From Tropicimonas sediminicola (GTDB lineage: Bacteria > Pseudomonadota > Alphaproteobacteria > Rhodobacterales > Rhodobacteraceae), in assembly GCF_900188335.1 (NCBI RefSeq), contig NZ_FZOY01000004.1:124001-188000 (forward strand): a DNA stretch of 64,000 bases, read 5' to 3'. How positions within the stretch are numbered: position 1 is the stretch's first letter; the number at the start of each line of letters is the position of its first letter. Below, piece by piece: positions 1,372 to 30,744 of the stretch. The position numbers and the translations under genes are program-made. The notes under the pieces are model-generated. The model saw only the letters and a list, made by a program, of their open reading frames with translations. It was not told where the DNA came from and searched no databases.

Positions 1372-1446
1372 GTGCACGACACGATTGCCATTGCCGTATC
1401 CGACACGCACGCCCATCCGGCGTGGGCCGGCGAGCTGCCCGGATGA
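1372..1446 (+). CDS. possible 24-codon leader ORF translationally coupled to the binding-protein gene
   Basis: A strong Shine-Dalgarno GGGAGG (1361-1366) is followed 5 nt later by GTG 1372. That frame runs 24 codons and ends in a TGA that overlaps the ATG of the next gene (ATGA, 1443-1446). The product is not recognisable. It may be a leader that couples translation, or a remnant of a lost 5' end of the binding-protein gene, which itself has no signal peptide. Small ORFs of this kind occur by chance, so this is weakly supported. Confidence 0.25.
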   Translation: MHDTIAIAVSDTHAHPAWAGELPG

Positions 1447-2396
1447 CGGAACCGATCCGCATATCCCTCGGCGGCTACCAGGGCCCCGGCTCGGTGCACA
1501 CCCGCGCCCTGAGCCAGCTGCAAGACGCGATCGAGCGCCGCACAGGCGGCGCGGTCGAGGTGCGGATCCGGGCCAATGTCGCCGAAGACGGCCACGGCAC
1601 CGCGGACCTTCCCGACCTTGTCGAGAGCGGGCAGCTCGATGGTTGCTACATCTCGTCGAGCTACCTCTCGGACCGTATCCAAGCGCTGTCGCTGTTCGAC
1701 ATGCCCTTTGCCGTTCCGGACCGGGACGCGGCGCTCGCCCTTCTGGACGGAGCCCTGGGCGCACGTTTCGCGCAGGAGGTCGAGGCGCATACCGGCCTGG
1801 TCCTCCTCGGCATCTGGGACAACGGCCTGCGCCACATCTCGACCGCCGACCGCCCGCTGCATCGGCCCGCGCAGGGAAAGTGCCTCGTGCTGCGAACGCT
1901 GCCCAATGCCGACCATCAGCGCGCCTTTCGCACGCTCGGCTTCGAGCCGCGCGTCGTCGATGCCAAGGACCTGGCCGGCGCCGTGTCCCGCGGCGAGGTC
2001 GACGCACAGGAAAACCCGCTCACGAACACCTACAACTTCGGCCTGCACGAGACGCTGCCGACCATCACCCTCACAGGGCACCTGATGGGGATCGCGCTCC
2101 TGCTCTTCAACCGCGCGCGGCTGCAGGCCCTGCCCGAGGCTATCCGCGCGGCCGTCAGGGCCGCCGCCACCGAGGCCAGCCGCGCGCAACGCGAGCTGGC
2201 CCGAGAGGACGACGCGCACTGTGCCCGGGCGTTGCTCGAGGCCGGCGCGACGATGCACCACCTGACCGCAGAGGACCGCGCCGCATGGCGCGACGCCGCC
2301 GAGCCCGAACTGGCGCGCAGCCGCGCCCGGTTCGATCCGGACCTGCTGTCGCTGTTTCAAACCGGACTCGAAGCCAGGGGGAGGGCTCCAGCATGA
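1443..2396 (+). CDS. TRAP-type C4-dicarboxylate binding protein (DctP family), lacking an obvious signal peptide
   Basis: 317 residues from ATG 1443 (an in-frame GTG at 1422 would add seven). It shows the DctP/TRAP solute-binding layout: an N-terminal beta strand opening into a helix, the hallmark segment GEVDAQENPLTNTYNFG (about residues 183-199) whose Asn and Arg neighbourhood forms part of the carboxylate pocket, and a charged C-terminal helix. TRAP binding proteins are periplasmic, but this one begins with polar residues and no hydrophobic leader is seen in frame. No DctQ/DctM permease genes are next to it. Its stop overlaps an ATG in the tctB frame (2393) and it lies in the tct operon. 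Confidence 0.8.
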   Translation: MTEPIRISLGGYQGPGSVHTRALSQLQDAIERRTGGAVEVRIRANVAEDGHGTADLPDLVESGQLDGCYISSSYLSDRIQALSLFDMPFAVPDRDAALALLDGALGARFAQEVEAHTGLVLLGIWDNGLRHISTADRPLHRPAQGKCLVLRTLPNADHQRAFRTLGFEPRVVDAKDLAGAVSRGEVDAQENPLTNTYNFGLHETLPTITLTGHLMGIALLLFNRARLQALPEAIRAAVRAAATEASRAQRELAREDDAHCARALLEAGATMHHLTAEDRAAWRDAAEPELARSRARFDPDLLSLFQTGLEARGRAPA

Positions 2397-2476
2397 TGCA
2401 CGAATCCGTCGACCAGTCGCCACGGGCGGAGGCCGAAGGCGTGGCGCCCGGCACAAGCAACAATGGGAGGTCGCAA

Positions 2477-2995
2477 ATGACCCGCAAGCATCCGCTTCTC
2501 ACGCCCGAGATATTGACGCTCAACGCCCTGATGATCGCGTCGGTGCTGTCGCTGATCTTCATGAACTCCCTTGTCGCGGCCCCGAAGGCCCTGTTCGGGC
2601 GCTCGCTCTCGGCGATCCCGCCGAGCCTGTTTCCCAGCATCGTCCTTGCGGCGATGGCGGTGATGTGCGCCTGCGCCCTGGTGCTGGTTCGCACCCGCAT
2701 CTCGTCCCGGGTCGACAAGGGTCTGAACCGGGCCGAATGGCTGCGCGCGGTGACGCTGTTCGGCATCATGACGCTCTACGCGCTGACGATGGTGCCCTTC
2801 GGGTTCCTGATCTCGACCGCCATCGCCATGACGCTGATCTCCCTGCAAATGGGGGCCCGGTCGGTCATCCAGATCACGCTCGTGGCGCTGCTCGGACCGA
2901 TCCTTCTCTATCTGTCGGCCACACAGCTGCTGGCCGTGTCCCTTCCCGAACTCAACGCGATCGAAATGGCCTATGCGCGCATTCTTTCGCTGTAA
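2477..2995 (+). CDS. tctB: tripartite tricarboxylate transporter small membrane subunit TctB
   Basis: 172 residues with four predicted transmembrane helices, the size and topology of TctB, the small membrane subunit of TTT carriers. It lies directly before tctA. Two starts are credible: ATG 2477 with GGGAGG at 2465-2470, and ATG 2393, which overlaps the preceding stop and has GGGGGAGGG at 2377-2385. The later start is preferred because the extra 28 residues are polar and low in complexity, but the earlier one cannot be excluded. It forms the membrane complex with TctA and takes substrate from the periplasmic TctC protein. Confidence 0.82.
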   Translation: MTRKHPLLTPEILTLNALMIASVLSLIFMNSLVAAPKALFGRSLSAIPPSLFPSIVLAAMAVMCACALVLVRTRISSRVDKGLNRAEWLRAVTLFGIMTLYALTMVPFGFLISTAIAMTLISLQMGARSVIQITLVALLGPILLYLSATQLLAVSLPELNAIEMAYARILSL

Positions 2996-3027
2996 TCCCC
3001 TGAAATTCCTCAACGCGAGAGGCTCGC

Positions 3028-4512
3028 ATGATTGAACAGTTCACCCAGGGCTTTGCCATGGCAATGCGCCTTGACACGATGGCCATGGTGAGCGTCGGCC
3101 TGTTCGCCGGTATGCTTGTCGGGTCGCTGCCCGGTTTCACGACGCTGATGGCGATGGCCATCCTGCTGCCCATCTCGTTCTTCCTTGACCCGATCGTCGG
3201 AATTCCCTTTTTGCTCGGGATCTACAAGGGCGGCATCTTTGGCGGCAGCGTGCCGGCGATCCTGATCTCCATGCCGGGCACCGGCGCGGCCGTGGCCACC
3301 TCCCGCGATGGCTACAAGCTCACGCAGAAGGGCCAGTCCCGCAAGGCGCTGGACATGGCGCTCTATTCCTCCGCCTTTGGCGACACCTGCAGCGACATCT
3401 TCACCATCGTGATGATGTTCCCCATCGCCTACCTCGTGATGCAATTCGGTCCGCCGGAGCTCTTTGCGGTGCTGCTGATGAGCCTCGTGATCATCGCCGC
3501 CACCTCGGCTGCCAACCCGCTCAAGAGCCTGATCATGATGATGCTGGGCCTCTGGCTGTCCTTCATCGGCACAGACCCGCTGGGCGGCGTCGAGCGCTTC
3601 ACCTTCGGCCTCTTCGACCTGAAGTCCGGCATCCCGCTGCTGCCCATGCTGATCGGCGTCTTCGCCCTTCCCGAGGTCGCCAACGTGGTGATCAAGAACG
3701 AGAAGAGCCGGCAACTGGCCGCGCTGGTCGGCGAGCGTCTGACCCGCGTCGAGTTCCGTCGCTGCCTGCCGACGATCTGCCGCTCGACGGTGATCGGCAC
3801 CGGCATCGGAATCGTGCCCGGCCTCGGCCAGATCGTGGCCGCGATGATGGGCTATTCGGCGGCCAAGAACGCCTCGAAACATCCCGAGACATTCGGCGAG
3901 GGCGAGATCGAGGGCGTCGCCGCCGCCGAGGCCGCCAACAACGCGGTGAACGGGCCGACCATGGTGCCGCTGCTGACCCTCGGCATCCCGGGCGACAACG
4001 TCACGGCGATCCTGCTCGGCGCCTTCGTGGCGCAGGGCCTGCGGCCTGGCCCGCAGCTCTTCGAGGAGCAGGGCGCGACCGTCTTCGCCATCCTCGTGGC
4101 CATGGTCATCGCCAACCTTCTGTTCGTGGCCATCGGCTACCTGTCGATCCCCTTCTTCGCCCGCCTGGTGACGATCAAGACCTCGATCCTGATCCCGCTG
4201 GTGATCATGTTCGCCTTTGCCGGCACCTACGTGTTCCGCTCCGACTCCACCGACCTGCTGATCCTGGTGGCCTTCGGGATCTTCGGGATCATAGCCAAGG
4301 CGGCGCGGTTCGACGTGATGCCGATGGTGATGGGCTTCATCCTCGGGCCGTCGATGGAATACGCCTTCGGCCAGACCGTCGCCATGTCGAGCGGCAATCC
4401 CCTGGGCTTCTTCCTGTCGGAACGCACGGGCGCCCTCGTGGTCCTGCTCGTCACCCCGATCATCGGCTTCATCCTGTGGCGTCGCCTCTACGGCCGACCG
4501 CTGCCCACCTGA
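3028..4512 (+). CDS. tctA: tripartite tricarboxylate transporter permease TctA
   Basis: 494 residues, the usual TctA length, with about 11-12 membrane helices. Two glycine/proline-rich motifs typical of the family are visible: GMLVGSLPGFTTLMAMAILLP near residue 28 (shown in part) and the second-half copy around GIGIVPGLGQIVAAMMGYSA (about residues 256-275). The short linker TLGIPGDNVTAILLGA also fits. It is the large secondary-transport subunit that uses an ion gradient to import a carboxylate delivered by TctC. It follows tctB by 32 nt and precedes tctC in one operon. Confidence 0.93.
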   Translation: MIEQFTQGFAMAMRLDTMAMVSVGLFAGMLVGSLPGFTTLMAMAILLPISFFLDPIVGIPFLLGIYKGGIFGGSVPAILISMPGTGAAVATSRDGYKLTQKGQSRKALDMALYSSAFGDTCSDIFTIVMMFPIAYLVMQFGPPELFAVLLMSLVIIAATSAANPLKSLIMMMLGLWLSFIGTDPLGGVERFTFGLFDLKSGIPLLPMLIGVFALPEVANVVIKNEKSRQLAALVGERLTRVEFRRCLPTICRSTVIGTGIGIVPGLGQIVAAMMGYSAAKNASKHPETFGEGEIEGVAAAEAANNAVNGPTMVPLLTLGIPGDNVTAILLGAFVAQGLRPGPQLFEEQGATVFAILVAMVIANLLFVAIGYLSIPFFARLVTIKTSILIPLVIMFAFAGTYVFRSDSTDLLILVAFGIFGIIAKAARFDVMPMVMGFILGPSMEYAFGQTVAMSSGNPLGFFLSERTGALVVLLVTPIIGFILWRRLYGRPLPT

Positions 4513-4583
4513 CACATCGGCGCGGCGCAGCGATGCGCCGCGTCTTTCATGCGAACGACCCAATCAACAAAGGGAGGAAAACC

Positions 4584-5555
4584 ATGTTGAGAAACTTTAC
4601 CAGGAAAGCCCTCGCCTCGCTGGCAATCACCGGGGCCGCGCTGACGGCAACCATGTCGCCGGCATTGGCGGAATACCCCGAGAAGCCGGTCACCATGGTG
4701 ATCCCGCTCGGCGCCGGCGGCTCGCATGACCTGAACGCGCGGATCATCACCTCGATCATTCCCAGCTACCTCGGCCAGGCGATGATCGTGCGGCTGACGC
4801 CGGGCGCCGGCGGCCAGAAGGGCACCCAGGAGGTCGCGAATTCGGCCGCGGATGGCTACACCCTGCTGTTCACGCACAACTACATCGACATGCTGCAGCA
4901 GTATGTCGAGAACCTGCCTTACCAGCCGCTCGAGGATTTCGTCCCGGTGGCACGGGTGAACTACGCTCCGGCCTCGATCATCGTGCGGGCCGACAGCCCG
5001 TTCCAGACCTTCGAGGAACTGGTGGCCTTTGCCAAGGAGAACCCGGGCGAGCTGCAGCTCGGCCATTCCGGCAACTGGGGCGCCTTCTTCGTGCCGGCCG
5101 CGCAGATCATGAAAAAGCTCGATTTCGTGATGAACATGGTCCCCTACCAGGGGGGCGGCCCCGCCATGCAGGCGCTGCTGGCCGGTGACTCCGACATGTC
5201 GCTCGCCTTCCCCTCGGCCCTCGGCGAGCTGGTCGAAGCCGGCAAGATCCGCGTGCTGGCCACCGCCGGCGAGGAGCGCATCTTCGAGGACGTGCCGAGC
5301 TTCACCGAGGTCGGCATCGACGGCGACATCGGCTTCATGCACCGTTTCGTGCTTGCGCCGGCCGGCACGCCGCAGGAAGCGCTCGACGAGCTCGAGGCCG
5401 CCTTCGCCCAGATGTCCGAGGACGAGACCTTCAAGAAGCTGATGGACCGCCTTGGCGAGAGCGTCGACCCGATGACCGGCGCGGAATACCAGGCCCTGCG
5501 CGAAGGGCAGGCCGTGGCCTATGACGAGTTGGTGAAAGACCTGACCTCGCAATAA
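4584..5555 (+). CDS. tctC: tripartite tricarboxylate transporter substrate-binding protein TctC
   Basis: 323 residues from ATG 4584, chosen because AGGGAGGA lies at 4571-4578 and the protein then opens with a classical Sec signal peptide ending in SPALA before EYPEKPVT. The mature protein has the Bug/TctC fold signature: YPEKPVTMVIPLGAGGSHD at the start of the mature chain and a PGAGGQKGTQEV segment that contacts carboxylates. It is the periplasmic receptor for the TctAB permease. Ligands in this family range from citrate to aromatic acids, so the substrate is not assignable. A strong terminator follows. Confidence 0.93.
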   Translation: MLRNFTRKALASLAITGAALTATMSPALAEYPEKPVTMVIPLGAGGSHDLNARIITSIIPSYLGQAMIVRLTPGAGGQKGTQEVANSAADGYTLLFTHNYIDMLQQYVENLPYQPLEDFVPVARVNYAPASIIVRADSPFQTFEELVAFAKENPGELQLGHSGNWGAFFVPAAQIMKKLDFVMNMVPYQGGGPAMQALLAGDSDMSLAFPSALGELVEAGKIRVLATAGEERIFEDVPSFTEVGIDGDIGFMHRFVLAPAGTPQEALDELEAAFAQMSEDETFKKLMDRLGESVDPMTGAEYQALREGQAVAYDELVKDLTSQ

Positions 5556-7193: not shown

Positions 7194-7207
7194 ATTGGTT
7201 GACCATT
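7194..7207. promoter_or_regulatory. putative GntR/FCD operator, site 1
   Basis: TGGTTGACCA at 7196-7205, a TGGT-N2-ACCA palindrome with AT-rich flanks (ATTGGTTGACCATT). It lies 29 nt after the cupin stop and about 120 nt before the GntR start. Similar sites occur at 7313, 13544 and 13666. Confidence 0.65.
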
Positions 7208-7311
7208 GAGGGCAAGCCATGTCATCTGCGCGGCAGACCCTTCCAACATACCCGGAAGCGTTCAGGAACCAAGCGGAATTTCCGCTCTCCGGCGCTCGAC
7301 GGATCTGCGCG

Positions 7312-7324
7312 ATGGTAAACCAAT
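7312..7324. promoter_or_regulatory. putative GntR/FCD operator, site 2, overlapping the regulator's start
   Basis: TGGTAAACCA at 7313-7322, directly abutting the ATG at 7323. No Shine-Dalgarno sequence is seen here, so bound protein would cover the translation and early transcription region. Its centre is 117 bp from site 1, which would allow looping and autoregulation. Confidence 0.6.
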
Positions 7325-8009
7325 GCAAGAAAAAGTTCTCCCGAGGCTACGCAACTGGATCTCCGGCTCCGGACTGGCGAAGGGCGACCGCCTGCCCCCG
7401 GAACGCACCCTGTGCACGACCCTCGGGGTAAGCCGCGCCGAGCTGCGCAACGCCTATCTCGTGCTGGAAGCCGAGGGCATCCTAGAGCGCCATGTCGGGC
7501 GGGGGACGTTCCTGTCGCGCAGCCTGCGCGCCGCGCGCGGCAGCAACGGGATCGAGGGCGCGATTTCCGAGCTGGCCGAAAGCACGGGACCGGTCGACGC
7601 CATGACCGCCCGGCTCGTGCTGGAGCCGGAGCTCGCCAACCTGGCCGCGCTTCACGCCACGCCCCTGCAGCTGCGCGAGCTGCGCCGGCTGGCCAGCGCC
7701 ATGCGCGAAGCGACAAGCTGGAGCGCCTACGAGGAACTCGACAGCGAGTTCCACGAAACCATCGCCGCGGCCTCGGGAAACACCCTGCTCCAGGCGCTGC
7801 ACAGGATGGTCAACGGCGTCCGGGTCATCGTCGTCTGGCGGCGCCTCAAGAGCACGGAGCGCGGCCCCGGCGCTGACTACCATTCCTTCGACGAACACGA
7901 CGCGATCCTCGCGGCGCTCGAAAGCCGCGACGGCCCCGCGGCGAGCGCCGCGATGCGCCAGCACCTGCAAGGCACGCTGGCGGCAATGACGGCCGCCCCG
8001 CCGGCCTGA
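7323..8009 (+). CDS. GntR family transcriptional regulator with FCD ligand domain
   Basis: 228 residues from ATG 7323. Residues about 5-65 form a winged helix-turn-helix of GntR type: GDRLPPERTLCTTLGVSR and then LRNAYLVLEAEGILERHVGRGTF with the wing. The rest is an all-helical FCD domain with candidate metal/ligand residues in LDSEFHETIAAASGN and SFDEHDAILAALESRD. FCD regulators usually repress catabolic operons until a hydroxy- or sugar-acid binds. TGGT-N2-ACCA palindromes lie just upstream of this gene and upstream of the zinc-ADH operon, so it is the likely local regulator. The frame extends upstream to 7206, but the conserved part begins here. Confidence 0.9.
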   Translation: MQEKVLPRLRNWISGSGLAKGDRLPPERTLCTTLGVSRAELRNAYLVLEAEGILERHVGRGTFLSRSLRAARGSNGIEGAISELAESTGPVDAMTARLVLEPELANLAALHATPLQLRELRRLASAMREATSWSAYEELDSEFHETIAAASGNTLLQALHRMVNGVRVIVVWRRLKSTERGPGADYHSFDEHDAILAALESRDGPAASAAMRQHLQGTLAAMTAAPPA

Positions 8010-8116
8010 GCCACAGGATCAGAAAGTCGCATAGCAAGTATCAGCAAAGCTTGTTTGCCGAGAGCGGGCCCGAGTTGCGACACTGATCAACACGTTGGAA
8101 AGCTCGGGGATATGAG

Positions 8117-9202
8117 ATGAGACAGGTGGAAGTCGCCGTGATCGGCACCGGATGGTGCGGGGGCATGCGCGCGGAATCGCTGGCAAAATCGGCGCTGGTC
8201 GACAAGCTTCACATCTGCGAAATCCGCCCTGAACGGCTGATGGAGGTCAAGGCGCTGACCAGCCCCGCGACCGCCACGATGGACTACCAGGACATCGTGA
8301 AGAACCCCAACATCGAGGTGGTCTATATTTCGACCACGCCGGAGCCGACCCACTACCCCATCGCCCGCGACTGCCTGAAGGCCGGCAAGCACGTGCTGCT
8401 GGAGAAGCCCATCGCGATGGAACTGGCCGAGGCCGACGACCTGATCGCGATCGCGCGCCAGAACAATCTCAAGTTCACCATCGGCTATTCCCAGCGCTTC
8501 AACCCCAAGATCGCCTGGGCCAAGAAGGCCATTTCCGAGGGCAAGCTCGGCAAGATCGTGAACGTGATGGTCAGCCGCCATCTCTCGCGCAGCCTCGGCT
8601 CGCGGATCGCCGGCCGGGTGAAGCTCTCGCCGGCGGCGATGGAATCCACCCACGATCTCGATTTCGTCTACTGGCTGCTCGATGCCAAGCCGGTGCGCGT
8701 CTATTCGCAGGGTGCCTACGGCTACATGAAGGAACTCAACGGCTCCTATGACTGCATGTGGAACACCGTGAACATGGACAACGGCGCGCTGGTGGTGATC
8801 GGTGGCGGCTGGAACCTTCCGCCGAGCTATCCCAATTACTGCGCCACGTGGATCGAGATCACCGGCACCGAGGGCTCGCTGATCCTCGACGACACGTCGC
8901 GGGACAACTGGCTCAACACGGTCGAGGGGCATACCCAGTTTCCCATGTCGACCATGCCGGGCGAGCATGTGGATCACATGTATGCCGGGCAGATGGGGCC
9001 GGAGACGCTGCACTTCCTCGAATCCGTCCTGCTGGATCGCGAACCGCTGGTGTCGCCGGAACATGCGCGGATGGTGATGGAGAGCTACCTGGCCGCCGAC
9101 ATCTCGGCCGAGACCGGCGAGGTCGTGGACCTGCCGCTCTCCAACCACGCAATGGCGACGCTGGCCGACATGATCGAGGCCAAGAACCGGGAAGCGAGTT
9201 GA
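8117..9202 (+). CDS. Gfo/Idh/MocA family NAD(P)-dependent oxidoreductase
   Basis: 361 residues. The N-terminal Rossmann domain opens with VAVIGTGWCGGMRAESLAKS (GxGxxG). VLLEKPIAMELAEADDLI carries the conserved EKP lysine near residue 97. The C-terminal alpha/beta domain has ESTHDLDFVYWLLDAKP, where the His of the HD pair is the usual catalytic residue. Family members oxidise hydroxyl groups of sugars, inositols and sugar acids. The stop overlaps the TTG start of the next gene, so it is co-transcribed with two beta-hydroxyacid dehydrogenases. Confidence 0.9.
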   Translation: MRQVEVAVIGTGWCGGMRAESLAKSALVDKLHICEIRPERLMEVKALTSPATATMDYQDIVKNPNIEVVYISTTPEPTHYPIARDCLKAGKHVLLEKPIAMELAEADDLIAIARQNNLKFTIGYSQRFNPKIAWAKKAISEGKLGKIVNVMVSRHLSRSLGSRIAGRVKLSPAAMESTHDLDFVYWLLDAKPVRVYSQGAYGYMKELNGSYDCMWNTVNMDNGALVVIGGGWNLPPSYPNYCATWIEITGTEGSLILDDTSRDNWLNTVEGHTQFPMSTMPGEHVDHMYAGQMGPETLHFLESVLLDREPLVSPEHARMVMESYLAADISAETGEVVDLPLSNHAMATLADMIEAKNREAS

Positions 9203-10059
9203 CCCGCGCCGGCGTCGTCGGCCTCGGCCAGATGGGGCGCGGCATCGCGCGGCGCCTCGATGGGGCCGGGCTGCTGGTTGCCGCGGCGGATGCCCAGACC
9301 GGCATGTTGGAGGCTGCGGACCTCTCGGACCGGGTCGGGGCGGATATCCTCGATGCCGACGTCCTGGTGTTCGTTGTGCCCAGCACCGCACAGATCGCTG
9401 AGGTTCTGGAGAGCGCGCCCGGCAGGGACGGACAGGTGATCGTCGACCTCACGACATCGCACCCCGATGACAGCGCCGCGCTGGCCACAAGGCTCCTCGA
9501 CCGGGGCATCGCCTATGTCGATGCCGCCATGACCGGCGGGGCCGCAGGGGCGGACGCGGGCACCCTGACGCTGATGATGGGCGGCGAGGCCAATGTCATC
9601 GCCGGGATCGCCCCGGTGCTGGACCGGATCTCCGCGCAGCGCTTTCACATGGGGCCGGTCGGCGCGGGCCATGCGATGAAGCTGGTCCACAACCTGATCC
9701 TGCACAGCGCCTTCATGGCCACCTGCGAGGGCCTGACGCTGGCCGAAAAGGCCGGGCTGAACGTCGCGCGCGCGGTCGAGGTCCTGAACGCCGGGAACGC
9801 GCGCAGCTTCGTGACCGAGGTGCGCTTTCCCCGCGACATCCTGAGCGGCACGATGAACGGACGCTCGCGGATCGCGAACCTCGAGAAGGATCTCGGGCTT
9901 GCTTCCCGCTTCGCCGCAGCGCAGGGCGGACCGGCGGCCTATACCGACCTGACCCATCGGCTGCTCGCGGCCGCACTGGCAATCGGCGAAGGCGAGACGG
10001 ATTTCTCGCATCTCTTCCCGATGTTCGATCAACTGACGCGGCAGGCGCAGGATGGTTGA
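9199..10059 (+). CDS. NAD(P)-dependent oxidoreductase, 3-hydroxyisobutyrate dehydrogenase family (TTG start)
   Basis: 286 residues. The start is TTG 9199, overlapping the previous stop as TTGA. It is preferred because the next ATG (9232) would cut the Rossmann motif GVVGLGQMGRGIARRL. The family pattern is complete: YVDAAMTGGAAGADAGTLTL for the substrate loop, and VGAGHAMKLVHN with the catalytic lysine. These enzymes interconvert beta-hydroxyacids and semialdehydes (3-hydroxyisobutyrate, tartronate semialdehyde and others). It overlaps the next gene, a second family member, by 8 nt. Confidence 0.88.
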   Translation: MTRAGVVGLGQMGRGIARRLDGAGLLVAAADAQTGMLEAADLSDRVGADILDADVLVFVVPSTAQIAEVLESAPGRDGQVIVDLTTSHPDDSAALATRLLDRGIAYVDAAMTGGAAGADAGTLTLMMGGEANVIAGIAPVLDRISAQRFHMGPVGAGHAMKLVHNLILHSAFMATCEGLTLAEKAGLNVARAVEVLNAGNARSFVTEVRFPRDILSGTMNGRSRIANLEKDLGLASRFAAAQGGPAAYTDLTHRLLAAALAIGEGETDFSHLFPMFDQLTRQAQDG

Positions 10060-10915
10060 GCCGAGGACCGAGATCGGCGTTTTCGGACTGGGCCTGATCG
10101 GCGCCTCGCTGGCCAGCCGCCTGCTCGCGGCGGGCTACAACCTGCGGGGATACGATCCGGACGAGACTCGAATGGACCAGCTATCCGAGCAGGGCGGCAC
10201 GGCCTGCCCTCCCGAAGAGGTCTGGAAGGCGGACGTCGTCTTGTCCTGCGTATTCGACACCGACCAGCTTTCAGCGCTGATCGACGCGGCGCCCAAGGCG
10301 CCCTGCGTGCTGGTGTCGATGAGCACCTGCGATCCGGAGCGGATGCAGGGCCTCGCAGGGGCGGCTGCAATGCGCGGCATCACCCTCATCGAGGCGCCGA
10401 TTTCCGGCACCAGCCGGGCGCTCGCGAGCGGCGACGTGCTGCTGCTGGTCGCTGGCGACAAGGACACGGCGCAGCGCCTCGCCCCGATCTTCAACGCCCT
10501 CTCGCGCCAGCACATCCACGTCGGCGCAATCGGAAACGGAAACCGCGCCAAGCTGGCGATCAACCTCGTCCTCGGCCTGAACCGGGCCGCACTGGCCGAG
10601 GGCATGGTCTTTGCCGAAGCCCTCGGGCTTGCCCCGGACGACTTCCTCGAGATGGCCCGCGCCTCGGCGGCGCAGTCGGCCGTGATGGAGTCGAAGGGGC
10701 ATCTGATGGCGCGGCGGGACTTCGCCCCGCAAGGCAAGATCGCGCAATCGGCCAAGGACTTCAGGCTGATCCGCGATGGCGCCGCCGCGGCCGGACAGGG
10801 CCTGCCCTTTGCGGAGACCTACCTTGCCATGATGGAGGATGCGATCGCGCACGGCGAGGGCGAGCTGGACAATTCGGCCATCCTGCTGCCCATCGCGCGC
10901 GCGACCACGGGCTGA
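10052..10915 (+). CDS. second NAD(P)-dependent oxidoreductase of the 3-hydroxyisobutyrate dehydrogenase family
   Basis: 287 residues starting with IGVFGLGLIGASLASRLLAA (Rossmann GxGxxG). It has IEAPISGTSRALASGDVLLL as the substrate-binding segment and GNGNRAKLAINLVLG with the catalytic Lys. It overlaps the upstream paralogue by 8 nt but is quite different in sequence, so this is not a recent duplication. The two may act on different semialdehydes, or form a heteromer. The latter is speculation. Confidence 0.88.
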   Translation: MVEPRTEIGVFGLGLIGASLASRLLAAGYNLRGYDPDETRMDQLSEQGGTACPPEEVWKADVVLSCVFDTDQLSALIDAAPKAPCVLVSMSTCDPERMQGLAGAAAMRGITLIEAPISGTSRALASGDVLLLVAGDKDTAQRLAPIFNALSRQHIHVGAIGNGNRAKLAINLVLGLNRAALAEGMVFAEALGLAPDDFLEMARASAAQSAVMESKGHLMARRDFAPQGKIAQSAKDFRLIRDGAAAAGQGLPFAETYLAMMEDAIAHGEGELDNSAILLPIARATTG

Positions 10916-10941
10916 CCCCGGGCGTTACGCCTTGCCCGGGG
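10916..10941. terminator. hairpin between convergent genes
   Basis: CCCCGGGC (10916-10923) and GCCCGGGG (10934-10941) form an 8-bp stem with a 10-nt loop between the convergent stops at 10915 and 10925. There is no T-tract, so termination on either strand is only suggested by position. Confidence 0.4.
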
Positions 10942-11392
10942 GAACCAGCCGGACCTCGTCCGGCACGTCGAGCGGCGGGTTCGGGCCGTCGATGAACTCG
11001 ACGGTCGTGAAGATCAGCTCGCTGTCGCCGATATTCTCGACCGAGTGCAGCATGTGATCCCCCGCCCCGTAATTGAAGTGCTTCGTCTCGCCCTGGTAAT
11101 GGACAACGTCGCGGATCTCGCCCGACGAGAAATACCCGCGCGCCTTGCCCGGCACCATCGCGGTCCAGAAATAGCGGTTCACGTGGCGATGGAAGCGGCA
11201 GCGCTTGCCGGGCGGCAGACGGAGGTGCCAGATCCGCATCGTATCGGTTTCGGAGACCAGCACCGAACCGACGCAGCCGTTGTACATGTCGCCCAGCATC
11301 TCCTCGTAGACGCCCTCCGGCCAGTGAGCAAAAGCCGCCGGGTCGGGATTGATCTCGACGTGGTCGGGACCGTGCGTTTCAACCTGTGCCAT
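10925..11392 (-). CDS. cupin domain-containing protein
   Basis: 155 residues from ATG 11392 with GAAGGAGGAGCGC-like purine-rich sequence before it. Cupin ligands are visible in KRCRFHRHVNRYFWTAM (HxH) and YGAGDHMLHSVENIGDSEL with the second-motif His. It is unrelated in detail to the cupin at 6728. It is the last gene of a minus-strand group with the DHDPS-like lyase and zinc-ADH, 11 nt after the lyase stop, so it probably belongs to the same pathway. Function unknown. Confidence 0.78.
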   Translation of the reverse strand: MAQVETHGPDHVEINPDPAAFAHWPEGVYEEMLGDMYNGCVGSVLVSETDTMRIWHLRLPPGKRCRFHRHVNRYFWTAMVPGKARGYFSSGEIRDVVHYQGETKHFNYGAGDHMLHSVENIGDSELIFTTVEFIDGPNPPLDVPDEVRLVPPGKA

Positions 11393-11403
11393 GCGCTCCT
11401 CCT

Positions 11404-12330
11404 TCAGCTGGCAAGTTCCGGGGCAGCGTTCAGCCCCTCGAGATCGGCCTTGAACGCGGCCTTCTGCGCCCCTGACAGTGGCTGCAGGGGCGGCTGCATC
11501 CGCAGCCAGCCGTCATCGCCACTGCGCCAGGCCTCGGCCGTCTTCATCGCCGCCATCAGCGGGTATTTCGAGGCGACGGCCCGCGCCGCGCGCACCTCTC
11601 GCATGGCCGCCTCGCGCTCCGGCCCCTCCGCGGCCCGCCGCGCGGCCTGCACCTTCTGCGCGAAGATGTTGGTCGAGCCGGAGATGATCCCGGCCGTCCC
11701 GATCGACAGCCCATCCCAAAGGAAGGCCTCGGACGACGGATAGACGTCGAAATCCTCGGCGACGCCACCGGTCGCCTCGACGAAGGCGCGGGACTGCTCG
11801 AAGTCGCCACTGCTGTCCTTGAGCCCGGCGACGATGGGCCCGAACGCCTCCCGCAACCGCAGCACGAGGTCCACCGACAGCGGCACCTGGGACATCTGCG
11901 GGAAGTGATAGAGATAGATCCGCAGATCGTCCCGGCCCACCTTGTCGATCAGCCCCGCACAATAGGCATAGAGCCCCTCGTCAGAGGGCGACTTGTAGTA
12001 ATAGGGCGGCAGCACGAGAGCGTTGACGAACCCCGCCTCGCAGGACGCCCGCGTCAGCGCCACGCAATCGGGAAGCGACGGCGCACCGGTGCCGAAGATG
12101 ACCTGGTCGGCCGCGAAACCGGCCTGCGCGAAGATCCCGGGCAGCGCCAGCCGGTCAGCCATCGCGACCGACGTGCCTTCGCCGGTGGTGCCCGTGGGCG
12201 CCACGCCATCGCAGCCCCCCTCCGCCAGCAGGTGCCGGCAATAGGCCACCAGCTTGTCGCTTTCCAGCCGGCCATCCGCATCGAAGGGTGAAATGGCGGC
12301 CGCATAGATGCCGCGTCGTGCCTTGGTCAT
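11404..12330 (-). CDS. dihydrodipicolinate synthase / KdgD family lyase or dehydratase
   Basis: 308 residues, the usual length for the DHDPS/N-acetylneuraminate lyase (TIM barrel) family. Visible marks are VAPTGTTGEGTS (the TT pair that binds the carboxylate), a Tyr in IYLYHFPQMS, and the Schiff-base lysine in VAGLKDSSGD. The family cleaves or dehydrates 2-keto-3-deoxy sugar acids and related pyruvate adducts. ATG 12330 has a strong GGAGAGGAGA; an in-frame ATG at 12351 would overlap the upstream ADH stop. A frame extending to 13170 is only the shadow of the ADH gene. Confidence 0.88.
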   Translation of the reverse strand: MTKARRGIYAAAISPFDADGRLESDKLVAYCRHLLAEGGCDGVAPTGTTGEGTSVAMADRLALPGIFAQAGFAADQVIFGTGAPSLPDCVALTRASCEAGFVNALVLPPYYYKSPSDEGLYAYCAGLIDKVGRDDLRIYLYHFPQMSQVPLSVDLVLRLREAFGPIVAGLKDSSGDFEQSRAFVEATGGVAEDFDVYPSSEAFLWDGLSIGTAGIISGSTNIFAQKVQAARRAAEGPEREAAMREVRAARAVASKYPLMAAMKTAEAWRSGDDGWLRMQPPLQPLSGAQKAAFKADLEGLNAAPELAS

Positions 12331-12347
12331 GAAAGGTCTCCTCTCCG

Positions 12348-13517
12348 TCATTTCGCCTTGGGTCCGCCGGTGATGCCGGGCCGGGTCGAAACGACGACCT
12401 TGATCGCATCGTCGATCCGCTCGCGGGCGTATTTCAGCGCCGTCGGAAGATCGTCCAGTGGGAAGGTATGGGTGTGAATGAGGCTCGCGTCGAAACGCCC
12501 TGCCTCCATGAAGGCCATCGCGCGGTGGGTGGCGGACCGGCCCTCTCCGCGGATGCCGTAGAGATAGATGTTGTTGACCGCGAGCGCGCCGAGCGTGAAG
12601 GACACCGCGTTCTTGGGGAAAGCCGCCAGGCAGATCTTGCCACCCCGGTTGGTCATCGCCACCGCCTGGTTGACGGTGGTTTCGGACCCCGCGCAATCCA
12701 CCACGTAATCCGCGCCCTTGCCGGTCAGCTCCTTGACCCGGGCCACCACGTCCTCGTTGCGGGCATCGATCACGTGGTCGGCACCGAGCTGCCGCCCGAT
12801 CGCGTTGCGGCTTTCGCGGGTGCCGACGAGGATCACCGGCGCAGCACCGAGGGCCTTGGCCACGGCCACCGCCAGCAGCCCGATCGGCCCGGGCCCGATG
12901 ACCACGACGCTCTCGCCCGCGACCAGCCCGCCCAGTTCCGTCAGCCCGTACATCGAGGTGCCCGCCGTCACGACCAGCGTGGCCTCCTCGTCCGACATGG
13001 CGTCGGGTACCCGGATCAGGGTGTTGATGTTGTTCACCGCGTATTCGGCGAAGCCGCCGTCGGTGGTGAAACCGTTCGCCCGGTGCCCCTTGTCGACATC
13101 GCCATAGTTCAGGCCGTAGTTGTGACAGGAGGTGTACATCCCCTGCCGGCAGCGCTTGCACTGGCCGCAACCGGCGTGGATCTCCACCGTGACCCGGTCC
13201 CCGACAGCGAACTCGTCGACACCCGGGCCGAGGGCCGCGACGGTGCCCATGTACTCGTGTCCCGGCGTGAAGCCCTTGTTGAACGGCGCGCCGCCCTCGA
13301 TCATCGCCGGTGTGCCATAGGTCAGGATCTCAAGATCGGTGGCGCAGATGGCGACCGCATCGATCCGCACCAGCACCTCCGCCCGCCCGGGCATCGGGGT
13401 CGGCTTGTCGACGAGCGCCAACTCGTCCGGCCCGCCCAGAACCCAGGCGCGCATCGTCTGCGGCACATCCTCTCCCAGGCCACGCCGGGCCGGCTCGATT
13501 TCTACCTTGGCGTCCAT
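12348..13517 (-). CDS. zinc-binding alcohol dehydrogenase (medium-chain, sorbitol/threonine dehydrogenase type)
   Basis: 389 residues from ATG 13517 preceded by GAGGAGGAGC. The catalytic zinc site appears as AICATDLEI and TPGHEYMG. The structural zinc loop is complete, CGQCKRCRQGMYTSC. The Rossmann motif is VVIGPGPIGLLAVAVAKALG. The enzyme should oxidise a polyol or sugar-acid hydroxyl with NAD(P). It is the first gene of the minus-strand operon ADH-lyase-cupin, and two TGGT-N2-ACCA type sites lie 27 and 149 nt upstream of its start. Confidence 0.92.
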   Translation of the reverse strand: MDAKVEIEPARRGLGEDVPQTMRAWVLGGPDELALVDKPTPMPGRAEVLVRIDAVAICATDLEILTYGTPAMIEGGAPFNKGFTPGHEYMGTVAALGPGVDEFAVGDRVTVEIHAGCGQCKRCRQGMYTSCHNYGLNYGDVDKGHRANGFTTDGGFAEYAVNNINTLIRVPDAMSDEEATLVVTAGTSMYGLTELGGLVAGESVVVIGPGPIGLLAVAVAKALGAAPVILVGTRESRNAIGRQLGADHVIDARNEDVVARVKELTGKGADYVVDCAGSETTVNQAVAMTNRGGKICLAAFPKNAVSFTLGALAVNNIYLYGIRGEGRSATHRAMAFMEAGRFDASLIHTHTFPLDDLPTALKYARERIDDAIKVVVSTRPGITGGPKAK

Positions 13518-13541
13518 TTGCTCCTCCTCGCGCCGCTCAGA

Positions 13542-13555
13542 TTTGGTCAACCATT
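13542..13555. promoter_or_regulatory. putative GntR/FCD operator, site 3
   Basis: TGGTCAACCA at 13544-13553, a perfect TGGT-N2-ACCA palindrome 27 nt upstream of the zinc-ADH start. Read on the minus strand it is AATGGTTGACCAAA, almost identical to site 1 near the regulator gene. Confidence 0.65.
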
Positions 13556-13663
13556 GTGGCAATCTTTGGTCGATCTGTTATGGAGAGCGAACGCCGGGAA
13601 AATCAAGGTATTTATGCCAAAGAAACTGAATCAGCGCGAACGGTCAGGCAATTCCTGCAGTAA

Positions 13664-13677
13664 ATTGGTTAACCTTT
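13664..13677. promoter_or_regulatory. putative GntR/FCD operator, site 4 (one mismatch)
   Basis: TGGTTAACCT at 13666-13675 keeps the GGTTAACC core and differs from TGGT-N2-ACCA at the last base. Its centre is 122 bp from site 3, close to the 117 bp separating sites 1 and 2. Confidence 0.5.
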
Positions 13678-20123: not shown

Positions 20124-20244
20124 CGCGCCATAGGTAGTTCCTAGCCGTTCCGGCGCGCGCCGGCAATGCCCCTGAAAAGGAGATGTTTTTTCGGAAACTA
20201 GCTCCGAGAGGGCCTTGAATGTTCCAGCATGTTCCGCGACTCTC

Positions 20245-20266
20245 TGGGGGAACTATTGGGGGAACC
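20245..20266. repeat. paired TGGGGGAAC boxes, left end (possible integrase arm sites)
   Basis: TGGGGGAAC at 20245-20253 and TGGGGGAACC at 20257-20266, 12 bp apart, just before the integrase start at 20269. The same pair with the same 12-bp spacing recurs at 40629-40650, 30 bp inside the right attachment site. Position fits arm-type binding sites; the second box may also act as the integrase ribosome binding site. Confidence 0.6.
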
Positions 20267-20268
20267 GG

Positions 20269-21486
20269 ATGACCTCTCTGCCCAAGCCAAAGCCGAAATC
20301 TCTCACCGCGGCCTTTGTTAATTCCGTCAAGGAACCCGGGAAGTACCACGACGCCAAGGGCACAGGGCTCTTCCTCCTCGTGAAGCCAACCGGCGGTAGG
20401 TTCTGGGTACAGCGTATTGTTATCCGCGGGAAGCGCCGTGAAATGGGGCTGGGCAGCCCACCAGTTGTGTCGCTCGCTGAAGCCCGTGAAGCGGCTCTGA
20501 ACAACAAGAGAGTTGCCCGAGCAGGCGGCGACCCACTGGCGGAGAAGCGAAGGGCGCGCGCTGTCCTGACCTTCGAAGAGGCGGCACGGAAGACCCACGC
20601 AGAGCTTGCGCCGACGTGGAAGAACCCAAAGGACCGCGCGGCGTTCCTCTCCACATTGGAGAACTACATCTTCCCGCGTTTTGGCTCCGTGCCCCTTCCC
20701 GAGGTGACGAGCGCGGACGTTCGGCAGGCCATCCTCGCCGCACGGGAGAAGGCGCCGGGGGTGGCGAAGAAGCTCATCTACCGGGTTTCCTTCGTCTTCA
20801 AATGGGGCATCGCCGAGGGCATGTGCACCGCGAACCCGTCCATCGCACAGGCTTTGGCCCTGCCCCGCGTGGAACAGAAGCCGAAGCACCGCAAGGCGTT
20901 GCACTACGCCGACGTTGCCGGCTGCATCGAGACAGTCCATGCTTCCCGCGCGTGGATTGCCACGAAACTCGCGCTTGAGTTCTTGGTCTTGACCGCCAGT
21001 CGGTCGGGGGAAGTGCGTATGGCACATTGGGATGAAATCGACTTGGACACCGCTACATGGGAGATTCCGGCCGAGCGGATGAAGATGAAGCGCCCACACC
21101 GGGTTCCCCTGTCAGGCCGTGCGCTGGAAATCCTTCGGGAGGCTAAGAAGCTGCGTGACGACAGCGGTCTCGTTTTCCCAAGCATACGAGGCAAGGCGCT
21201 GTCCGACATGACGCTCTCCAAGCTAGTAAAGGAACTCGGCTTCGAGGCCGACATTCACGGCTTCCGCACATCGTTCCGCACCTGGGCACAAGAGCACACC
21301 AACTTTCCGCGCGAAGTCGCCGAAGCGGCGCTTGCGCACAAAACAGGCGACGCGGTGGAGCAGGCCTATGCCCGCTCGGACCTGTTCGAGAAGCGACGGA
21401 AGATCATGGAAAACTGGGCTAGCTTCATATCCCTTGGAAAACCCAGTGTCTCCCTGCTGAAATACCGCGAACACCCCGCCCAATAG
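20269..21486 (+). CDS. tyrosine-type site-specific integrase (P4/DUF4102 type)
   Basis: 405 residues from ATG 20269. The N-terminal 90 residues are a DUF4102-like arm-binding domain (GLFLLVKPTGGRFWVQRIVI, then GLGSPPVVSLAEAREAAL). A SAM-like core-binding domain follows, and the catalytic domain carries ASRSGEVRMAHWDEI (first Arg), HGFRTSFRTWA (HxxR) and HKTGDAVEQAYARSDLFEKR, with the Tyr nucleophile in AYARSD. Such integrases insert elements at tRNA 3' ends. It lies 145 bp inside the left attachment site, the end away from the tRNA gene. Confidence 0.95.
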   Translation: MTSLPKPKPKSLTAAFVNSVKEPGKYHDAKGTGLFLLVKPTGGRFWVQRIVIRGKRREMGLGSPPVVSLAEAREAALNNKRVARAGGDPLAEKRRARAVLTFEEAARKTHAELAPTWKNPKDRAAFLSTLENYIFPRFGSVPLPEVTSADVRQAILAAREKAPGVAKKLIYRVSFVFKWGIAEGMCTANPSIAQALALPRVEQKPKHRKALHYADVAGCIETVHASRAWIATKLALEFLVLTASRSGEVRMAHWDEIDLDTATWEIPAERMKMKRPHRVPLSGRALEILREAKKLRDDSGLVFPSIRGKALSDMTLSKLVKELGFEADIHGFRTSFRTWAQEHTNFPREVAEAALAHKTGDAVEQAYARSDLFEKRRKIMENWASFISLGKPSVSLLKYREHPAQ

Positions 21487-27960: not shown

Positions 27961-28170
27961 ATGGAATACTACGTTGGCTTGGATGTGTCGCTTCGGTGCT
28001 GTGCGCTTTGCGTTGTAGATGGGCGCGGCAACGTTTGCATGGAGCAGGAGCTGCCATGCGAGATAAATGACATTGCTGGTTGTTTGGACGCGTTTGGTCA
28101 GCCAATTGGGCGTATTGGCTTTGAGGCTGTTGCGCTCAGTCAGCACCTGGTCTTCGGGCCTTCTGCATGA
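27961..28170 (+). pseudogene. IS110 family transposase, N-terminal remnant
   Basis: 69 codons. MEYYVGLDVSLRCCALCVVD is the typical start of IS110-type (DEDD) transposases, with the first catalytic Asp in GLDVS. GRIGFEAVALSQHL is the following conserved segment with the Glu. The reading then breaks at about 28158 and stops at 28170, while full-length proteins are about 340 residues. The rest of the element is absent; unrelated sequence leads into the sulfatase gene 72 bp later. Confidence 0.85.
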
Positions 28171-28242: not shown

Positions 28243-30744
28243 TCAGTCGCTGGCCTTCTGCATCGCAGCTTCGAGCTTCTTGATATCGGCGTCGCTGAGC
28301 TTTGGACGATCGATCTTGATCGTCAGTTTCTCCAGTTTGGCCGTGAGCGAGAAGGGTGGCTTGTAGTCATCGTCGTTTACGCCCGTGAGGGTATCGGAAC
28401 CGACGTCGAAGGCTTCGTCCCACTGCAGGATGGTCGGGATGGTGTTCTTCATTTCCTTGGTGTCGACCACCTGGCCATCTACCTTCAAGGTGCCGGTGCC
28501 GCCCTTGCCCAACCCGCTTGGGCTGCCGTAGGCGAGCGTCGCCGCGCCGAGACCGTCATACTGGAAGTCGAACTCGACCATATGCTTCCCGGGAGCCAAC
28601 GCTTCCTTCCCTTCCCACTTGATCCGCTCCAGGTTGACCATGTTCCAGGTGAAGACCGGCTTGCCCTCAAGCAGATAGAAACCGTAGCCTGCGAACCGGC
28701 CACCCGAAGTCAAGATCATCCCCTCGGCTCCGCCTTCGGGCATCTCGATCTCTGCCGTGATCGTGTAGGAACTGTTGAGCAGGCTTGGCGAGTCGCCCTG
28801 CGGAACTCCCGTCATTGGCCGCGTATAGACGAACTCACTGCGACCCGCCGTGATGCTTGGCCGCGGCTTCGCAAGTCGCGTGGTCACCGACGCGTCCATC
28901 GGGAAGACCTGATATTTCTTTGCCTCCTCGATGAACATCGCCTTCATCTCCTTCACCTTGTCGGGATGATCCTTGGCGACATTGGTCGATTGGTTCATGT
29001 CGGTCGTCAGATCGTAGAGTTCCAGCACCTGATTGTTGAGCGGATCGGGGTTCGGCGTCCCTGGCGTCTCCCAGGGCATTCGGTTGACCTCGGTGCTCAG
29101 CAGCCAGCCGTCGTGATAGAGCGCCCATTGGCCCATCATCTCGAAATACTGGGTAGTGTGGCGCGAGGGCTCATCAGCATTGGTATTATCGAAGGTATAG
29201 GCGAAGCTTGTGCCTTCGATCGGCGACTGCTTGATGCCATCAACCGTCTCGGGCTGCTTGATCCCTGCCACTTCGAGGATCGTCGGAACCACGTCGATCA
29301 CATGCATGAATTGATCACGGCGCCCACCCTTGTCAGAGATACCTTTCGGCCACGACACCACCATGTTCTGGCGGATGCCGCCGAGCCGATTGGCGTTCTG
29401 CTTGAAGTAATCGAAGGGTGTGTCGAAGGCCCAGGACCAACCGGCGGACATATGGTTGTAGGTCTCTTCTGTACCCCAGACATCATACCATTGCATCTGG
29501 GTCTCGGCGGGCATCTCGGCGATGCCGTTGAACCATGCAACCTCGTTGGGCGTGCCCATCGGCCCTCCCTCCGCACTCGTGCCGTTGTCGCCATTGATGT
29601 AGATGATCAGTGTGTTGTCCAACTCGCCGATGTCCTCGATCGCTTGAACGACGCGGCCGATCTCGTGGTCGGTATAGGCGGCATAGGCAGCAAAGACCTC
29701 GACCTGTCGGATGAAGAGCTTCTTCTCGTCATCGTTCAGGGTGTCCCAAGGCTTGAGTTTGTCCGCGGGCCATGCGGCTAGTTTGGCGTCCTGCGGCACC
29801 AGCCCCAGCTTCTTCTGGTTCTCGAAGATCGTCTGGCGCAGCGCCTCGTACCCATCATCGAAGAGCTTCATGCCTTCGATTTTCTCGACCCATTCCTTTG
29901 TCGGATGGTGCGGGGCATGGGTGGCGCCCGGGGCATATTTCACGAAGAACGGCTTTTCCGGATCGACCTGGTGCAGGTCGGTGATCCATCCAATCGCTTC
30001 ATCGGCCATGCCGGTGATCAGATTCCATTCCGGATCGCCGTCAAACGGGTAGATCTGGGTGGTATTGCGAAACAGGTTCGGCTGCCACTGGTTGGCGTCG
30101 CCACCGACAAAGCCATAGAAGTATTCGAAACCGAGACCGCTCGGCCACTGTTCGAAGGGACCGGCTACGCTGGCCTGAAAGGCTGGCACGTTGTGGTTCT
30201 TGCCGAACCAAGAGGTACTGTAGCCGTTCTCCTGCAGAATTCGGCCGATGGTCGCCTTGTCTTTGGTGATGATGGAATTGTAGCCGGGATAGGCCGTCGA
30301 TTGCTCCGAGATGACACCAAAGCCTACCGAGTGGTGGTTGCGCCCAGTGATCAGTGCGGCCCGCGTCGGCGAGCAGAGAGCGGTGGAGTGGATGTTGGTA
30401 TAGCTCAGCCCCTCGGCGGCCAGCGCATCCATTGTCTCGGTCGGAATGACTCCGCCGAAGGTGCTTGGAACACCGAAGCCTGCGTCATCGGTGATGATCA
30501 GCAGCACGTTGGGCGCCTCTTCCGGGGGAACGACGCGCGGCGGCCACCAGGGCGTGGACTTGTTCGCCTGTTCCTCGATCTTGCCGCCAAACGCCATCGG
30601 CGGCGGGGGCAGTTGCGTGCCGTCGAGCGTAATGGTGGAAGATGGGGATCCAGTTGGTGTTTGTGCCAGTCCGGGCAGAAGTGAACTGGTCAGCATGACA
30701 AGGACCGCCGGCACTGCCAGGACGATCTTCCGATTGAAAGACAT
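28243..30744 (-). CDS. exported arylsulfatase (type I, formylglycine-dependent)
   Basis: 833 residues with a Sec signal peptide (residues about 1-28, ending GLAQ). The sulfatase signature LCSPTRAALITGRNHHSVG places the Cys to be converted to formylglycine at residue 124. NVLLIITDDAGFG at 79-91 gives the metal-binding Asp pair, and GKNHNVPAFQ and KYAPGATHAPHHPTKEW fit further active-site residues. The large C-terminal beta domain is usual for the 780-830-residue arylsulfatase subgroup. It hydrolyses sulfate esters in the periplasm or outside, probably of organosulfates or polysaccharides. No sulfatase-maturing enzyme gene is in the window. Confidence 0.93.
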   Translation of the reverse strand: MSFNRKIVLAVPAVLVMLTSSLLPGLAQTPTGSPSSTITLDGTQLPPPPMAFGGKIEEQANKSTPWWPPRVVPPEEAPNVLLIITDDAGFGVPSTFGGVIPTETMDALAAEGLSYTNIHSTALCSPTRAALITGRNHHSVGFGVISEQSTAYPGYNSIITKDKATIGRILQENGYSTSWFGKNHNVPAFQASVAGPFEQWPSGLGFEYFYGFVGGDANQWQPNLFRNTTQIYPFDGDPEWNLITGMADEAIGWITDLHQVDPEKPFFVKYAPGATHAPHHPTKEWVEKIEGMKLFDDGYEALRQTIFENQKKLGLVPQDAKLAAWPADKLKPWDTLNDDEKKLFIRQVEVFAAYAAYTDHEIGRVVQAIEDIGELDNTLIIYINGDNGTSAEGGPMGTPNEVAWFNGIAEMPAETQMQWYDVWGTEETYNHMSAGWSWAFDTPFDYFKQNANRLGGIRQNMVVSWPKGISDKGGRRDQFMHVIDVVPTILEVAGIKQPETVDGIKQSPIEGTSFAYTFDNTNADEPSRHTTQYFEMMGQWALYHDGWLLSTEVNRMPWETPGTPNPDPLNNQVLELYDLTTDMNQSTNVAKDHPDKVKEMKAMFIEEAKKYQVFPMDASVTTRLAKPRPSITAGRSEFVYTRPMTGVPQGDSPSLLNSSYTITAEIEMPEGGAEGMILTSGGRFAGYGFYLLEGKPVFTWNMVNLERIKWEGKEALAPGKHMVEFDFQYDGLGAATLAYGSPSGLGKGGTGTLKVDGQVVDTKEMKNTIPTILQWDEAFDVGSDTLTGVNDDDYKPPFSLTAKLEKLTIKIDRPKLSDADIKKLEAAMQKASD

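Follow-up and report, generated by a model that had tools for sequence, protein, structure and literature searches.

Introduction

In the genome of Tropicimonas sediminicola (G000), a 64-kb stretch of contig NZ_FZOY01000004.1, here called the window, carries a gene (gntR) for a regulator of the GntR/FCD type and a leftward gene set headed by a zinc alcohol dehydrogenase gene (adh), and palindromes of the form TGGT-N2-ACCA are present at the control regions of both. The question raised by this locus is whether these palindromes are operators of the regulator encoded beside them and, if they are, how two pairs of sites could act on two promoters. An earlier note on this DNA proposed a local GntR/FCD regulon. 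The proposal is supported by phylogenetic footprinting in all ten genomes in which we found the orthologous regulator together with the same adh gene, and by the co-occurrence of paired sites with the regulator cluster. We conclude that the palindromes very probably belong to a local, autoregulated catabolic repressor circuit of the GntR/FCD protein, very likely a new example of an already well-known general type, the local FCD-GntR regulon.

As we picture this circuit, the 228-amino-acid (aa) protein would bind AWTGGT-N2-ACCAWT palindromes paired around two promoters: its own, predicted to serve gntR, gfo, and the two genes for hydroxyacid dehydrogenases, and the one ahead of the putative leftward adh-dapA-cupin operon. 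The ligand-free regulator would repress, rather than activate, both promoters. In each pair the proximal operator would lie at the gene start (for O2 at the start codon itself, for O3 ahead of the Shine-Dalgarno sequence) and the distal operator about 120 bp upstream, and therefore the promoter should lie in between. Release would be expected when a small carboxylate of the pathway is bound at a metal site formed by D140, H144, H192, and H214.

Predicted operators in the window and the genome

Exact copies of the core TGGTNNACCA occur at only three places in the window, 7196 (TGGTTGACCA), 7313 (TGGTAAACCA), and 13544 (TGGTCAACCA), which fall within the predicted operators O1, O2, and O3; a fourth copy at 13666 (TGGTTAACCT), within O4, carries one mismatch (Table 1). 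The distances within the two pairs are, as first described, 117 bp (7196/7313) and 122 bp (13544/13666), and the second pair does lie in the divergent control region of the adh operon. The first pair, which the earlier note had placed on either side of the gntR start, lies entirely upstream of the ATG at 7323.

Support for these sites resides in their AT flanks and their conservation and not in the bare core. When a single mismatch is tolerated, the window has 28 matches to the core, against 12.8 expected (standard deviation 3.7, maximum 23; 100 shuffles), and O4 is weak if taken alone because one-mismatch copies are so numerous. In the 5.17-Mb genome as a whole there are 104 copies of the bare core and 102 of its reversed control. 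The bare core is thus at chance, a frequency that the earlier note would have counted against the motif, whereas the core with AT flanks is non-random. With at most one mismatch, the flanked pattern AWTGGTNNACCAWT is found at 11 places in G000 and its control at 5; O1 to O4 account for four of the 11, and another precedes a paralogous GntR gene. The pattern WTTGGTNNACCWWT, which was shaped post hoc from the sites themselves, matches 4 places in the genome (3 forward, 1 reverse), three of them being O1, O3, and O4, and its control matches 1.

Nine genomes other than G000 supplied 23 sites for a symmetric weight matrix; these training sites were chosen by us, with at most one core mismatch and near the expected genes. 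In an out-of-sample scan of the window with this matrix, O1, O3, O4, and O2, in that order, took ranks 1 to 4 (scores in Table 1). Dinucleotide-shuffled copies of the window (200 in all) held on average 0.125 places with a score of at least 14, and never more than 2.

Conservation of the predicted operators with the regulator

Orthologues were sought in 146 relatives, in 394 family genomes, and in one scan of genome contigs. The regulator was found at E <= 1.1e-75 in 7 of the 394 family genomes, G000 included; the next matches, at E 3.4e-58 and weaker, were taken as paralogues, and the six fetched with wide flanks had no such cluster. Ten genomes combine the orthologous regulator with the same adh gene: G000, G008, Thalassovita gelatinovora, a Roseibium metagenome-assembled genome, G275, G309, G277, G197, G153, and G215. 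In the nine others the regulator is 54.9-75% identical to that of G000, and adh is at least 83% identical, nearby or elsewhere in the same genome (in G309, gntR and adh are on separate contigs). A gfo gene of at least 79% identity was seen in eight of the ten; the stretches from G197 and Roseibium showed none.

The orthologous clusters keep the sites, as the regulon proposal implied: all ten genomes have them at the gntR and adh promoters. In G008 all four are present, 118 and 122 bp apart within the pairs, and the counterpart of O4 (TGGTTGACCT) carries the same last-base mismatch. When the regions upstream of gntR were aligned for five genomes, 68% of 28 operator positions were identical versus 5% of 133 other positions. 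Predicted TKGT/ACMA palindromes at the regulator's own promoter, found in all ten genomes, are as expected of an FCD (FadR-subfamily) GntR protein. Among 23 adh loci compared, the pair is present in 7 of 7 that belong to regulator clusters and in 0 of the 16 others, whose adh genes are 71-80% identical and whose fetched flanks (about 1.5 kb per side) hold no regulator gene; a lone weak match (14.0) at one of the 16 lies on the far side of adh.

The regulator protein

The N-terminal winged helix-turn-helix and the C-terminal FCD domain of the regulator score well above their Pfam cut-offs of 27 and 24.3 bits (Table 1). The likeness to ExuR and UxuR suggested in the earlier note finds no support in NCBIfam, where the protein falls below every cut-off, and far below those of UxuR and ExuR: 94.4 of 260 bits for NanR, 92.0 of 311 for LldR, 84.5 of 442 for UxuR, and 69.4 of 396 for ExuR. 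The presumed metal ligands D140, H144, H192, and H214 are invariant in four orthologues, as are the helix-turn-helix residues E27, R38, R42, and G59, and by eye both sets match residues described in passages of PMC7797058, those of the metal site for Atu1419 and LldR. A structure model based on a four-sequence alignment (mean predicted local distance difference test score 84.7, with values below 50 at 68-75; predicted template modeling score 0.63) has seven C-terminal helices, including one at 77-87; the FadR group has seven such helices and the VanR group six. The 50 matches listed in a structure comparison include many different FCD proteins, at whole-chain template modeling scores of only about 0.3-0.6 and with none prominent.

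A predicted operator on the start codon

In eight of the ten genomes the core of the proximal operator adjoins the ATG of the regulator gene exactly, the palindrome sharing its outer AT with the start codon, as in O2. This ATG is retained in nine genomes. The exceptions to the arrangement are G275, in which the start-codon copy has decayed and another site is present at codon 12, inside the gntR coding region, and the Roseibium genome, in which 20 bp separate the end of the core from the likely ATG downstream. Pairing of the gntR upstream sequence with the anti-Shine-Dalgarno sequence is weaker (mean -3.5 kcal/mol, n = 9) than it is for 43 further genes from nine of these loci (-7.4 kcal/mol); the one-sided Mann-Whitney value of p = 0.0002 is approximate, with gene starts taken from alignment. 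The site on the start codon led us to consider a leaderless gntR transcript, which is disfavored because AT-rich, -10-like stretches seem, by eye, to be present about 60-75 bp upstream in several genomes.

Predicted operator pairs: possible separate action or looping

The paired arrangement was borne out in the relatives and could be extended to 22 pairs in the ten genomes, with members 116-157 bp apart (mean 131, standard deviation 11) that all score at least 13.9; in nine of them neither member was used to build the matrix. In the five compact-type genomes (G277, G197, G153, G215, and Roseibium), adh and gntR are divergent neighbors that have one pair in common. In the other five, split-type genomes, including G000, gntR stands beside a cupin gene and each promoter has a separate pair; TGGTTGACCATT at O1 is identical across these five. 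Further pairs precede transporter genes (DctP-TctBAC or a second TctCBA set) in G153, G277, G309, and Thalassovita, and there is an extra pair between two other genes in G277 and one elsewhere in the genome in G275. Three of the compact loci have, by eye, one more TGGT half-site about 21 bp ahead of the adh operator, possibly an accessory box. We considered whether the two similar pairs arose when a single divergent pair was duplicated; a tree that groups all ten regulators (support 100/99) does not show which of the compact and split arrangements came first.

The two members of a pair may be independent operators, the proximal one a roadblock at the gene start and the distal one blocking or serving a neighboring promoter, with no interaction between them; to our judgment the case for this is evenly balanced. 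The spacing is loose and shows no helical phasing for periods of 10-11 bp (Rayleigh p 0.66-0.93, about 0.76 at 10.5 bp), and in the five compact loci each member of the pair is near a different divergent gene, adh or gntR. A precedent is provided by FadR-subfamily divergons with a regulator gene and double sites, 71 of 100 of which have a spacing that tracks intergenic length and were read as carrying separate sites; the remaining 29, however, have a near-constant spacing and were read as cooperative pairs (passages of PMC4494728). Against independence, too, a similar range of spacings is found outside divergent gene pairs, at the cupin-gntR junction and before some transporter operons.

Alternatively, two dimers or a tetramer could bridge the distal and proximal operators and enclose the promoter in a DNA loop, which we regard as possible but not probable. 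The recurrence of pairs at 116-157 bp in ten genomes favors looping, as does the presence in G275, where the start-codon operator has decayed, of another site within the gntR coding region. For the tetrameric FCD protein Atu1419, which binds 10-bp palindromes 190 bp or 109 bp apart, the second palindrome of the 109-bp pair being degenerate and inside an open reading frame (ORF), a loop has been proposed (passages of PMC7797058). However, the spacings here lack phasing, Atu1419 belongs to the six-helix VanR group whereas our model shows seven C-terminal helices, as in the FadR group, and the GntR regulators other than Atu1419 are described as dimers in the same passages. In a reporter library for LldR, a distal site adds no repression beside the proximal site, but this is weak evidence because the LldR proximal site was ineffective in that assay (passages of PMC7804116). 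It is unlikely, in our estimate, that a FadR-group FCD repressor of the dimeric type would loop via pairs 116-157 bp apart and also have a start-codon operator that replaces the Shine-Dalgarno sequence, with one palindrome limiting both transcription and translation of the regulator.

Other readings and points against the regulon

The sites might instead be owned by a different FCD protein that is encoded in this genome and recognizes the motif as well, this GntR acting elsewhere. There is no shortage of candidates, with at least 18 GntR matches in G000 (20 of 50 candidates scored), and at paralogue loci a place scoring 13 or more was found in 22 of 46 (some loci were fetched twice), 20 of them with a single site. 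A similar palindrome, at C10:64655 (ATTGCTCAACCAAT, matrix 16.6), lies upstream of a 40%-identical paralogous GntR gene in G000, with a second, weaker palindrome (12.5) 92 bp beyond it. Ownership by another regulator is nevertheless highly improbable: one site is on the regulator's own start codon, the sites co-occur with the regulator cluster, and the flanked motif in G000 is concentrated at this locus. The only paralogue with a pair is a 47%-identical one of G189 (fetched twice), at 157 bp, and constant pairing looks like a trait of the present regulator group, although most paralogue stretches were short (flanks of about 1.5 kb). Chance palindromes, with which the genome-wide frequency of the bare core agrees, are a negligible prospect and were rejected on the out-of-sample ranking, the shuffles, the ten-genome conservation, and the co-occurrence at adh loci.

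Several points weigh against the local regulon that we favor. It is a prediction from sequence. The weakest of the four sites, O2 (14.2), stands barely above the fifth-ranked place of the window, at 28095 (13.2). Beyond O1 to O4 and the paralogue's site, six more places in G000 carry the flanked motif, of which the surrounding ORFs were inspected. Since similar sites occur near paralogous FCD genes, that at C10:64655 included, cross-recognition is possible. The 16 site-less adh loci are the more distant ones and include two second copies, from the regulator-bearing genomes G000 and G153; site absence is confounded with adh divergence there, and co-occurrence is therefore supportive and not proof. 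Although relatives have operators before the transporter operon, that of G000 has no site scoring 10 or more, and the regulon therefore seems smaller in G000. Finally, a simple scan of both control regions, of low power, returned no sigma-70-like promoter (shuffles expect 0.0 and 0.1).

The place at 28095 lies downstream of the stop codon of a sulfatase-like 833-aa ORF (28243-30744, minus strand; identified by eye).

Gene neighborhood

The features of the locus are collected in Table 1. The Pfam, NCBIfam, and structural relatives of the neighboring genes give enzyme families only, from which no pathway and no inducer could be deduced. The divergent neighbor of adh is an ahpD homologue in G008 and, by eye, a glutathione S-transferase (GST)-like gene in Thalassovita, G275, and G309. 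The neighborhood in relatives adds luciferase-like monooxygenase, BKACE, OsmC, alpha/beta hydrolase, LysR, and rhodanese genes (Pfam, G277 proteins), and together with the GST-like genes these suggest a larger catabolic pathway. Farther along the window, a 423-aa ORF at 20215-21486 resembles, by eye from its translation, a tyrosine-type integrase of a genomic island.

Table 1. Predicted operators and genes of the gntR-adh locus, in window coordinates
Feature	Coordinates	Strand	Remarks
O1, predicted distal operator of the gntR promoter, ATTGGTTGACCATT	7194..7207		matrix 26.9, best of the window
O2, predicted proximal operator of gntR, GATGGTAAACCAAT	7311..7324		matrix 14.2; core 7313-7322 adjoins ATG 7323
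O3, predicted proximal operator of the adh-dapA-cupin operon	13542..13555		matrix 23.2; directly upstream of Shine-Dalgarno
O4, predicted distal operator of adh, facing the divergent gene, ATTGGTTAACCTTT	13664..13677		matrix 22.0
Weak extra TGGT half-site, accessory box (uncertain)	13567..13576		matrix 9.9; 23 bp from O3
GntR/FCD transcriptional regulator, 228 aa	7323..8009	+	Pfam GntR 57.6 bits, FCD 93.3 bits
Gfo/Idh/MocA-family dehydrogenase	8117..9202	+	Pfam
3-Hydroxyisobutyrate-dehydrogenase-family protein A (start uncertain)	9199..10059	+	Pfam NAD_binding_2, NAD_binding_11 on 9205-10056
3-Hydroxyisobutyrate-dehydrogenase-family protein B	10052..10915	+	Pfam
155-aa protein, cupin-like by eye	10925..11392	-	no Pfam/NCBIfam match at E <= 0.001
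DapA-family aldolase/dehydratase	11404..12330	-	Pfam DHDPS 122.7 bits; best solved relative 3b4u
Zinc alcohol dehydrogenase (adh), first in the putative leftward operon	12348..13517	-	Pfam ADH_zinc_N, ADH_N; GAGGAGG before ATG 13517
Divergent gene, 246 aa	13929..14669	+	no Pfam/NCBIfam match at E <= 0.001
DctP-tctB-tctA-tctC transporter genes	1422..5555	+	no site >=10 in front

Comparison with known systems

The N2 spacing had been taken as typical of ExuR/UxuR-type regulators and as a sign that the inducer is a sugar acid. The first of these statements holds for UxuR and not for ExuR, which is listed with N3; the second is unsupported, as regulators with N2 sites (GntR, HpxS, HypR, MdcY, PrpR, and UxuR are examples) serve various pathways, according to passages of PMC4494728, in which LldR is also among the N3 regulators and NanR acts on direct repeats. 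UxuR of enterobacteria thus resembles the present protein in its FadR-subfamily membership and GT-N2-AC spacing, and UxuR and ExuR differ from it in the genes concerned and, as noted above, in their NCBIfam scores. LldR and NanR, its best NCBIfam matches, differ in the type of site; NanR 6on4 and the Corynebacterium glutamicum structure 2di3 (named LldR in PMC7797058) are among the best solved relatives in the matches listed.

Local regulons of FadR-subfamily FCD proteins (Suvorova et al. 2015, PMC4494728) have the same domains, palindromes of the GT-N2-AC type, sites at the regulator's own gene, and double sites in divergent regions. This gene set and regulator group are not among the passages of that survey that were compared, and here the proximal operator is anchored at the start codon. 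The closest precedent found for paired N2 palindromes, though by our model of another helix group, is Atu1419 of Agrobacterium fabrum, for which methylene-tetrahydrofolate is the proposed effector (passages of PMC7797058). It has in common with our regulator the FCD domain with its metal site and a 10-bp GT-N2-AC palindrome, ATGTATACAT, whose spacing we read as N2, present as two sites, one of them in an ORF; it differs in this core, here TGGT-N2-ACCA, in its hydroxycinnamate target genes, and in the six C-terminal helices of its group, against the seven of our model. Searches of the openly licensed PubMed Central literature gave no paper on TGGTNNACCA in connection with GntR, on a GntR operator overlapping a start codon, or on a Tropicimonas GntR protein.

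The inducer class cannot be read from half-site spacing. The present locus would add a ten-genome regulon with a defined motif, whose ligand could be approached through the two promoters as reporters. Its pairing of operators, together with the operator on the start codon, would be a good natural test of DNA looping by FCD repressors, a matter on which the literature, in the passages compared, is divided.

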